Source: Thysanoteuthis rhombus
Taxonomy: Eukaryota > Mollusca > Cephalopoda > Oegopsida > Thysanoteuthidae
Direction of reading: 5' to 3'
NCBI GenBank assembly: GCA_963457665.1
Contig: OY735222.1
Location: forward strand, 37,617,391-37,681,390
Length of the DNA: 64,000 bases
This document shows, one piece after another, positions 1 to 64,000 of this stretch. The notes below the pieces were generated by a model. That model was given only the letters and a program-made list of their open reading frames with translations, ran no database searches and was not told the DNA's origin. A program made the position numbers and the translations under genes. Every line of letters begins with the position of its first letter. Position 1 is the stretch's first letter.

Positions 1-85
1 CCGAGGAGTAGAGGTAGGATACTGGCCTCTGAAGTAAAGGTTTCAATCCTACCTCGTGGTACTGGATGAGATAATGGATAGTCTA
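1..85 (+). repeat. tRNA-derived SINE fragment (truncated by window edge)
   Basis: A B-box-like stretch (ggtttcaatcc at 39-49) is followed by cgtggtact. The order 'tactggcctct...ggtttcaatcc...gtggtact' resembles the clearer tRNA-like head at 60976-61145, which has 'taacttgcct...ggttcaatctc...gtggcac'. No A box can be assigned because the element runs off the left edge. RNA polymerase III boxes of this kind mark tRNA-derived SINEs. This is an inference from one box plus a partial match, and a chance resemblance is possible. Confidence 0.3.
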
Positions 86-815
86 TAGCCACATTGAAGA
101 GTTGTAATACAACAAAACGGCTGTCTGTAGATGACATATATATATATATAAGTCACATACACACAAAAAAGATTTTACGACCAGATTCCTTTCTGACTGG
201 GATGTCATATCTCAAGAAGTCAGAGAAATATTTTTCTGAAGTGTTTGTATTCTAAGCTTAACCATAAAAACCTAGTGCATTGTCACCTTTATTCTTGCAA
301 ATTTAGATACAATTTTTCAATTCAGGGAGTCACTCTCCAATTTAAAAAACTTCTTAAAAAAAAAAAAATCTAGAAAAAAAATTTTAAAAACTAACAAATT
401 CATCTAAATACTATAAACATTACACTGACAAATGTGCTTGGCAAATCACTCTTTAATTATAATTTAATTTGATTTATGGATTTTAAATTCATCATGAATC
501 TTACAATTTACAAACTCAAAAGCTTTTGATAACTCCTTTTTTTCATTGCCATCATGTGACATAGGAATTCATATTTCAAAATGTAACCCATTCTTCTATA
601 TCCCAAGAGAAATTAGTTTCACAAGTACAACCAAATGTAATATATATTCAATTATACTTGCACATAAAAAATAAATATTCTATGTAAACTATGTTCAAGT
701 ACAATTTATCATGTGTGAGCAAGTGAATTTCAATATTTTTTCAAATTTAGAAAAGTAACTTTTTCATTAAGGTGAATTTTTGGTATCACTGTATTTCAGT
801 CATTTGGGGAGTACA

Positions 816-17430: not shown

Positions 17431-17902
17431 AACAAATACTGAACTTATAAGAATGTTATAACGGTCAAGTTCATCAATCTAGAAATGAGTATGATGTTAC
17501 CTGAATTCATCACAGTAAGGAAAAGGAATGGATTACCAACCAAAGCCAAACACTCTTTTCCACAAATTGCATAACCCACAATACCCTGAGTATGTAAGCC
17601 CTTACCAACAGCTATATTTTATAAGTGTAATGAAAAATTAAAATCTTCAAAAGTATAATCTACAGTTCAGCAAACAAAATTTGAAATTTGTTTACCAATT
17701 TACAGAGAGCATGAAACTAAATCTCACCAAATTAGCAACTTTTATACATACATATACACACATATAGTAAAGACCCTGCAATACAGCATAATATAAAGCA
17801 ATGTCTGATATGTGATGGATTTATTTCATAGAGTGCATGATACATTCAACTTTATACACTGAGAGTCAAGTTGTTTTAGAGTAGAGCTGGAAACATAATA
17901 GG
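17431..17902. other. Anonymous DNA flanking the hammerhead-bearing element
   Basis: No gene. The stretch around 17757-17800 (cacacatatag...cagcataatataaag) vaguely resembles the sequence before the third hammerhead-like motif (63885-63945: cacacatacac...agtataacataatataat). The repeat unit may therefore extend outward beyond the inverted arm. Confidence 0.4.
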
Positions 17903-17908
17903 AAGTTG

Positions 17909-17964
17909 ATTCGCTACACAAACAAGTTTATGTTTCTGCCCTCTCTGGACCTCATTAGGCGAAT
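17909..17964 (-). ncRNA. Hammerhead-ribozyme-like motif, copy A
   Basis: Read on the minus strand. The stem I 5' strand attcgc (17964-17959) pairs 6/6 with gcgaat (17914-17909). The core ctaatga is one base off the consensus ctgatga. Stem II is ggtcc/gggc with an agaga loop. The core gaaa (17936-17933) follows. Stem III acataaac/gtttgtgt is 8 bp (one G-U), with a two-base loop tt. The cleavage position is gta, which fits the NUH rule. The position next to gaaa in stem II is A, facing G, where active hammerheads strongly prefer C. Architecture is hammerhead; activity is uncertain. Confidence 0.6.
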
Positions 17965-18479
17965 GATTGCATGCGTTTTTAGATTCTAGTTTGGGGAATT
18001 CGGTGAGAGTCTTGTGGGTGTCACTGAGTGGGAAGAGTTATTCATTTTGTTTTGTTTTTAGTAGTGTATGTTTTTGTTGGTGGTTGTAAGTTACATGTCA
18101 AAGGGTGTGAGCTAGGTGTAGGAGTTATCTATAAATAAATGCTGAATTGTGTTCTGAAGGATGTTCTCATCTTGATATTTGGCATCAAATTTATTGCCTA
18201 TGTTGGTATCCTGTGTGGCCATAATGGATTGTATTATTTGTAATTTACTTGGACATGTGAGGGAGTAGATAATGTTGATTAGAAGTTTGGGGGATGAAAG
18301 GTATGTGAATAAACTGTCGATATTACCTTTGATTTACTAACGTATGGATTGCTATATTATATTTGTTGAAAGAATTTTGAATGATGCCAGCATTTTAGTG
18401 TTACTTCGTTTTTTCTATTTTATAAATATATTTTAGGTTTACTTGTAATCTTAGCAAAAGAATCTAAAAACACAGAATC

Positions 18480-18535
18480 ATTAGCCTGATGAGGCCAAGA
18501 GAGGGCAGAAACATGAACCTGTTTGTGTAGCAAAT
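18480..18535 (+). ncRNA. Hammerhead-ribozyme-like motif, copy B
   Basis: The core ctgatgag (18486-18493) matches the hammerhead consensus exactly. Stem II is gcc/ggc with a 7-nt loop, closed by a G/A apposition (18493/18507). The core gaaa lies at 18508-18511. Stem III acatgaac (18511-18518) pairs over 8 bp with gtttgtgt (18521-18528), loop ct. The cleavage base would be A 18529 (gta site). Stem I attagc (18480-18485) pairs 5/6 with gcaaat (18530-18535). Hammerheads are small self-cleaving RNAs found in several retroelement classes, where they process transcripts. The G/A closing pair is shared by all copies here. Confidence 0.65.
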
Positions 18536-18543
18536 CCACTTTT

Positions 18544-18545
18544 TA

Positions 18546-18568
<23 letters not shown>
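18544..18568. repeat. (TA)n microsatellite next to hammerhead-bearing arm
   Basis: About 12 TA units directly following the right inverted arm. The third hammerhead copy (63945 on) also lies close to a long (TA)n tract. Confidence 0.97.
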
Positions 18569-18576
<8 letters not shown>

Positions 18577-19269
18577 TAAATCTCTGAAAAGTTACATAGT
18601 AAGCAACTGAAGATCCCAACAAGAGACAATTTATATGTTGTACAATAAAGTATAGGGGGAAACAGGAAAAAACACTTTGGAAGATTACATAAATTATATT
18701 GACATATCAGGAAATGGGTGACTGAAGTGACAAAAAATATCCATTGGTATAGTTTTTTAATGTTTAGTGTTTAAAGCTGTAAAGCTTTCTAGACACACGC
18801 ACACACATATATACATATGTGTTGATTGAAGGACAATAGAATTTAACTAGGGAAATGGTGAGGTGAGGTAATAAAAAATTAAAAGAATTCATTACACAAT
18901 ATTATGAGCAAGATAATTCTCTATTCCTCAAGATAACTATGAAGAGAAGATTCAACTGATAAAACTTCTTAGCATCATTTTTTATTGATATTTGTTCATC
19001 ATTCACTTTTAAATAAATGAAAGAAATATGGTAAATTTTCATCCATCTTCAAACATATATACTCACACACAACCATACATTTAAAATCAATTTCTTCAAA
19101 GCCAGATTTGATAGAATTAAAAGACAGACAGGAGGGAAAATAATGAATCAAAACTATTACATACTATGCATCACAGCTAATTATATATTTTTTTTAAAAA
19201 GAAAAAAAAAAAAAAATGGATAAACAAATTAAACTCCTAAATCAATTCCCCCGTCTCTATCTCACTGAA
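18569..19269. other. Anonymous AT-rich DNA, no gene seen
   Basis: Nothing recognised. A15 run near 19202-19216. Confidence 0.5.
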
Positions 19270-62097: not shown

Positions 62098-62370
62098 AAG
62101 CCATCAGATTACTAAAGATTAGAGATCAGCAGCCTATAATAGTAGCAGCCTGGGATTAGAGACACAAAAAAAAAAAGTGTACACTACTGGAAATAGACAA
62201 ATAGGTAATATCTTGTATCTACATGTCACTTCCTTCAGTTTTTATTAGTTTATGCCTGGCCTTACGATCCACAGACAATCTCAGTCCATGAACCAAGATT
62301 ACAGACAATGTTAGCGTTTTCAGGTCTGCCTAAAGGCTTCTCTTTTTCAGAATATCATCATTTGGCAAAG
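62098..62370 (-). repeat. Local duplication, copy 1
   Basis: Direct repeat of 63284-63574 at roughly 85-90% identity, with near-identical first 60 bases (aagccatcagattactaaag onward). On the minus strand a frame shared with copy 2 ends at the same TAG and contains GLRLSVDRKARHKLIK, but here it carries an internal stop and a net 12-base deletion. Either a local segmental duplication or two insertions of one repeat. Confidence 0.85.
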
Positions 62371-63283: not shown

Positions 63284-63574
63284 AAGCCATCAGATTACTA
63301 AAGATTAGAGATCAGCAGCCTATAATAGTAGCAGCCTGGGATAAAGGACAACCACAAAAAATAAAATTAGTGTATACTTCTGGAAATAGACATATAGGTA
63401 ATAACTTATATCTACAGGTCACTTCCTTCAGATTTTATTAGTTTATGTCTGGCCTTACGATCCACAGACAATCTCAGTCCATGAACCAAGATTACAGACA
63501 ATGTTTGCAACTCTGGTTGTATTTTCAGGTATCCCAAGAGGCTTCTCTCTTTAAGAATATCATCATTTGGCAAA
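63284..63574 (-). repeat. Local duplication, copy 2, with open 55-codon frame
   Basis: Partner of 62098-62370. On the minus strand 63579-63415 is open for 55 codons (no ATG at the start), with PNDDILKERSLLGYLK early and GLRLSVDRKARHKLIK later, ending at a TAG also present in copy 1. The only length difference inside the frame is a multiple of three. This could be the 3' end of a transposon-encoded protein or chance. A separate overlapping 63-codon frame (63716-63525) extends outside the duplication. Confidence 0.8.
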
Positions 63575-63944: not shown

Positions 63945-64000
63945 ACATTACTAATGAGGCCTGGAGAGGGCAGAAATATGAGCTAGTTCATGTAGCAAAT
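63945..64000 (+). ncRNA. Hammerhead-ribozyme-like motif, copy C (at window edge)
   Basis: Core ctaatgag (63951-63958), stem II gcc/ggc with a loop and the same G/A closing apposition, then gaaa (63973-63976). Stem III atatgagc (63976-63983) pairs 8/8 with gttcatgt (63986-63993), loop ta. Cleavage base A 63994, then gcaaat. The stem I 5' strand (acatta) does not pair well, so this copy looks decayed or has lost two bases before the core. Base changes in stem III relative to copies A and B keep pairing. Confidence 0.55.

Follow-up and report, generated by a model that had tools for sequence, protein, structure and literature searches.

A hammerhead-derived motif within a decayed copy of a probable Penelope-like element in the genome of Thysanoteuthis rhombus

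The retroelement copy and its hammerhead motif

The window, i.e., the whole stretch of 64,000 nucleotides of Thysanoteuthis rhombus DNA that has been analysed, contains a 5'-truncated and decayed retroelement copy on the minus strand at ~17,767-18,541. Read along this strand, its parts follow in the order inverted hammerhead unit, endonuclease end, untranslated stretch, sense hammerhead, tail and TA-rich sequence. The first of them is an inverted 5' fragment (18459..18541, plus strand) carrying the hammerhead-like motif, with an 86% inverted match to 17903-17987. Its boundary recurs in other copies, in which the main-strand match to the query (17880-18459) stops at about query position 580, corresponding to 18459 of the window, and an opposite-strand match starts there. 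The remnant of a GIY-YIG-like endonuclease follows (18369..18461, minus strand), comprising the last ~31 codons with one stop, which aligns by tblastn to a frame in the genomic locus L060 (64.5% over 31 aa, E 1.9e-6). The 3' untranslated stretch between the endonuclease frame and the hammerhead (17969..18368, minus strand) is ~80-86% identical to longer copies, and the sense hammerhead unit (17906..17970, minus strand, with its core part at 17,958-17,915) is 94% identical over 67 nt to the unit of locus L035. In this unit the core is broken, reading CTAATGA with a G to A change at position 5, and six of six stem I pairs have been counted by eye. The 3' tail has an approximate boundary (17767..17902, minus strand) and matches the L035 tail at 17777-17893 with 90% over 117 nt. 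A TA/T microsatellite (18542..18577) lies at the element edge, and a similar TA-rich stretch is found at the left edge (17741-17766, 81% to 18542-18567); being simple sequence, the two count as a merely possible target repeat. A third, partial hammerhead unit with the core CTAATGA lies on the plus strand at 63951..64000, where it is cut by the window end, beyond which the genome sequence consists of N. Two minus-strand matches to Rfam snoU85 above the cut-off have also been recorded in the window, at 62099-62366 and 63285-63571 (60.9 and 66.4 bits).

The hammerhead consensus core is CUGANGA plus GAAA. A sequence-only reading of the window had proposed a three-stem hammerhead on the plus strand at 18480-18535, and its assignment of the core, the three stems and the cleavage register has been confirmed base by base. 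The core CTGATGA/GAAA is present, the first base of CTGATGAG (C3) falls on 18486, and A17, the cleavage register, on 18529. Stem I forms five of six pairs, the exception being A facing A at the third position, and stem II begins with G.A at 10.1/11.1 and continues with G-C, C-G and C-G (GCC/GGC), then A.G. Stem III consists of eight pairs, A15.1-U16.1 and seven more, closed by a two-base loop. With stem I open and stems II and III closed, the architecture is that of type I, and the CUGANGA and GAAA elements, U16.1 and H17 all lie in the required register. A loose search pattern, CTGATGAG..GAAAC, has 3681+3597 matches in the genome versus 245+263 for the reversed pattern, and this excess marks the motif as a family and not a chance string. 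When A11.1 and four perfectly paired stem II positions are required, 1017+949 matches remain, versus 0+0 for the reversed pattern.

The window copy at 18480-18535 is predicted to hold the hammerhead fold at -4.2 kcal/mol versus a minimum of -12.6 (z-score -0.28), and the hammerhead copies of the window are fossils that most likely do not cleave. We regard the motif at 18480-18535 as a real hammerhead-derived motif within a decayed Penelope-like element (PLE) copy. The hammerhead proposed before has held, with type I architecture, but the motif is not a stand-alone ribozyme: it is the inverted 5' end piece of a PLE copy; the host element, the second copy at 17903-17987 and the third at 63951-64000 had escaped that reading. 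The motif is of a known kind, with a family-wide variation at the foot of stem II and a stem III longer than described for PLEs.

The probable Penelope-like element family

The query 17880-18459 is a dispersed repeat with 3678 first-look genome candidates, 40 of which have been scored in full, yielding 97 scored matches that mostly cover query 1-580. Other copies show the order reverse transcriptase (RT), GIY-YIG-like endonuclease, ~400 nt, hammerhead, tail and (TA)n, the element being inserted beside the last. In 38 of the 40 examined loci with an endonuclease match (28 of 30 distinct places after duplicates were removed by hand), this match is followed within 900 nt, mostly at 340-410 nt, by a hammerhead on the same strand, the exceptions being L054 and L072; this linkage is partly owed to selection, because the query that led to most loci holds both the hammerhead and the endonuclease end. 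Among four loci picked from protein searches instead (L070-L072 and L074), three carry it.

An RT match anywhere in the locus, on any strand and at any distance, is present in 10 of the 40 endonuclease loci, and the 3.5 kb of L074 hold RT, endonuclease and hammerhead in that order. In L072, an open RT-like frame of 319 aa contains FDIMDFYPSIS, SMGSLDSAE and YRDDGL, which we take to be RT motifs, with YYIGMSNTPFKLR further on. Longer copies also carry a frame that ends in CNLCLNEKFEI, with YYIG-SNTPFKLRLANHISSF upstream of that end. Inspection by eye of the 150 listed RT matches has shown an endonuclease match downstream on the same strand, within ~1.3 kb, for at least 19. Searches of the element's RT and endonuclease frames against Pfam, NCBIfam and PDB sequences have returned no RT or GIY-YIG match, so that the classification as a PLE is based on its architecture and on motifs, the YIG motifs among them, recognised by eye. 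Beside the PLE copy in L070, a different open frame of 352 aa has been seen on the minus strand (L070:2864-3919), with a GIY-YIG match at E 0.0077, below the cut-off. RT matches also cluster at C17:48782186-48828482, and L073 is a tandem RT array of a ~2.85-kb unit, 89-94% identical between copies; no hammerhead has been found in this array with up to one core change allowed.

In L072 and L035 the tail continues, by eye, into a frame with the opening residues MEKLNIEH, and in L072 an antisense tail and then a sense tail precede the frame start. Close hammerhead pairs, counted by eye, stand head-to-head, with 4 among the first 100 listed places of the loose pattern and 5 among the first 100 of the strict A11.1 pattern. 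The terminal units are found in direct or head-to-head inverted order with an optional tail, and head-to-head inverted terminal units and an optional tail are described as PLE traits (PMC3846280). Some head-to-head pairs lie 6 nt apart in near-perfect long palindromes (C1:67453262/67453295, C1:76899397/76899430, C3:34914852/34914885).

A MITE or terminal-inverted-repeat reading has been dropped, because the body runs into endonuclease and RT frames. In a broader form, in which a non-autonomous retrozyme or a MITE-like inverted-repeat element carries the hammerhead alone, it would accommodate the many copies that are short, palindromic and (TA)n-flanked, and type I hammerheads are indeed carried by metazoan retrozymes (PMC7229834). 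The window copy, however, has endonuclease sequence, longer copies extend into RT frames, and the metazoan retrozymes are ~300-bp tandem repeats as far as they are described there, whereas the short forms found here look like truncated ends, and we hold such an origin to be highly improbable. The reading that we prefer, at a probability of about 0.92, takes the motif for the hammerhead of a Penelope-like retroelement with a high copy number, represented in the window by a single old and 5'-truncated copy.

Cervera and De la Pena reportedly described PLE hammerhead ribozymes in 2014, a study cited in PMC11167929. As in published PLE hammerheads, so far as accounts of these go, the motif is of type I, sits in the terminal repeat of an element with RT-like and GIY-YIG-like frames, and is associated with AT-rich targets and with inverted or tandem end units. 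Hammerheads occurring in PLEs are presented as minimal, without helix III, in PMC6155905, whereas here stem III has eight pairs and G.A is the first pair of stem II. PLEs are further known for AT-rich targets and an internal start of reverse transcription (PMC11167929), and Poseidon of Anolis carolinensis (PAc), described in the same source, resembles the present family in a hammerhead near the frame start, in tail-ended copies that result from an internal start of reverse transcription, and in AT-rich sites. The PAc frame starts within stem II, however, whereas here, judged from sequence, the hammerhead is upstream of the tail and the frame start. Non-LTR animal retrozymes also hold a type I hammerhead in a retroelement (PMC7229834), but they are described as non-coding tandem repeats, whereas the PLE family has coding copies.

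In active copies, the hammerhead of the terminal repeat would cut tandem or end-repeated transcripts to unit-length RNA, the endonuclease of the element would nick AT-rich DNA, and reverse transcription may begin within the tail. The head-to-head inverted 5' end could arise from self-priming or from end repair during insertion; palindromic junctions have been used to argue for inverted-unit 5' closure in other PLEs (PMC3846280).

The G.A pair of stem II and a second hammerhead family

The G facing A at 10.1/11.1, pointed out by the sequence-only reading as the oddity of the motif, is present, and other family members keep the same core. Among 2,160 genome-wide copies of a strict pattern (intact CTGATGAGGCCC-N5-GGGC-N-GAAAC), base 11.1 is A in 1,966 (91%), G or T in 164 (7.6%) and C in 30 (1.4%), and the first 100 listed G/T11.1 copies comprise, by eye, 6 G and 94 T. 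G.A is therefore the usual state of the family, and the choice left open by that reading, a tolerated variant or a degenerate family, stands as it was put. Of the 2,154 A11.1 copies, 1,966 have G at position 10.1 and 188 have one of the other three bases; the 41 units selected without regard to their core comprise 30 with G.A, 6 with A.A, 1 with G-C and 4 with other combinations. A Watson-Crick pair, which is nearly invariant at 10.1/11.1 of hammerheads but not strictly defining, is thus not what the family shows. In ten loci each, viewed by eye, T11.1 copies have flanking letters in common and resemble a single subfamily, and C11.1 copies look scattered.

According to PMC3088659, 10.1/11.1 is the most conserved pair besides 15.1-16.1, and U-U is the best tolerated mismatch there. 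Non-Watson-Crick states at this pair in natural families include U10.1-U11.1 (PMC3088659) and U-U in axolotl HHR_Amex2 (PMC7229834), whereas in the present family G.A prevails, T (G.U) is in the minority and C is rare. No published G.A at 10.1/11.1 has been identified in a literature search, the two most relevant papers lying outside its scope.

A second hammerhead family is formed by a tRNA-headed SINE, of which 13 distinct copies have been found in the window and the retrieved loci (window 1-150, L025, L027, L028, L031, L033, L037, L042, L055, L057, L060 and L093). Downstream of a head that contains tRNA-like boxes, its copies read CCACA-CTGAAGA-GTTGT-AAT-ACAAC-GAAA-C-AGCT-G-UC-TGTGG, with the canonical core CTGAAGA (position 7 of the hammerhead core being free), G-C at 10.1/11.1, an AGCT loop and GUC, followed by (TA)n. 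In the decayed copy at the window start the motif lies at 94-130, and two copies (L031 plus strand and L093) share the compensatory double change GATGT/ACATC in stem II. For the giant squid genome, 235 hammerhead matches have been published (PMC6962438).

CpG is strongly depleted in the window (observed/expected 0.24, TpG 1.20), as in a methylated genome, and the change of C11.1 to A also removes the C11.1-G12 CpG in this CpG-poor genome. Avoidance of CpG as a general rule is disfavoured, since the hammerhead SINE family keeps that CpG. Hammerheads are known to have the pairs G8.A13 and A9.G12 next to stem II. In a working lineage, G.A would have replaced G10.1-C11.1, such that the foot of stem II would become a run of purine-purine pairs beside these; we put this forward tentatively, as the less probable outcome, and such a G.A might perhaps be tolerated by means of the long stem III or a protein of the element.

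Ribozyme activity and its meaning

For the copies to be compared, 15 of 95 matches have been set aside because they repeat the flanks of others, leaving 80 units; 41 of these stem from loci selected by way of the element body, and 39 were chosen by the core pattern or come from the window. The core is intact in 20 of the 41 units not chosen by it, and changed cells are about as frequent in the core (35/491) as at other non-CpG columns (140/1730, p 0.57). CpG columns decay fast (45/160 changed vs 181/2262), and since stem I is built of CpGs, its decay is expected. As the copies are dead after insertion, the absent core constraint is not evidence against a ribozyme in active copies. At nearly every stem pair the counts differ little from those expected under independence, the copies being too similar and dead, and a single pair of stem I shows a small surplus (32/38 vs 30.7 and 26/31 vs 21.9 expected).

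Alternative folds often win in prediction, with a median gap of 5.8 kcal/mol over the 80 units, and also in L035 and L046, and single-sequence folding has not separated real from shuffled sequences (z -0.28 to -1.74). Scans of the window with Rfam have found no hammerhead that reaches the gathering threshold, and 17880-18600 is without one even when E values up to 10 are allowed. Among 14 loci, 12 of them carriers of the PLE hammerhead family, no match to this family has appeared at E up to 5; sub-threshold Hammerhead_3 matches concern the SINE family only (L027 25.6 and L028 24.3 bits, cut-off 48.5). The sequence-only reading had named failure of the Rfam models, of core conservation among copies and of cleavage in vitro as speaking against it, and half of this is found, as Rfam has no match and the core is kept no better than the rest.

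These same results, the missing Rfam match and core constraint, the near-independent pairing and the usual win of other folds, together with the G.A that occupies the most conserved pair of stem II, would suit a chance resemblance, in which a hammerhead-like repeat has no ribozyme ancestry. Yet the core, the three stems and the cleavage register occur together in thousands of copies, the motif sits in the element class and the part of the element for which hammerheads have been published, and the predicted minimum fold of L013 is a three-way junction, and we judge mere resemblance very unlikely.

A further alternative is that a once-active hammerhead has become degenerate, the change of C11.1 to A being a founder's loss of function that has since been carried along in the terminal repeat. 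G.A is not named as tolerated in the accessible part of PMC3088659, where U-U fares best, stem II is short, and the window copy folds badly. On the other hand, the complete core is the majority state in each of two subfamilies distinguished by loop II and stem III, and G10.1 is retained in 1,966/2,154 A11.1 copies; a dead motif should drift between subfamilies, so the kept core counts against degeneracy, with subfamily differences too few for a test. We give this explanation an even chance. That natural A11.1 copies cleave has about one chance in three, and cleavage can only be inferred, because dead copies show neither core constraint nor clear covariation.

If natural A11.1 copies cleave, a large natural family overlooked by the standard models would show that the closing pair of stem II can be replaced, and the number of hammerheads in animal genomes would have been underestimated. 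The Anolis PLE hammerhead has been described as dependent on the assistance of its protein, and the ribozyme as dispensable for insertion in vitro (PMC11167929). If A11.1 copies do not cleave, PLEs would reach thousands of copies with a dead hammerhead, and such an amplification would bear, along with that dispensability in vitro, on what the PLE ribozyme is for.
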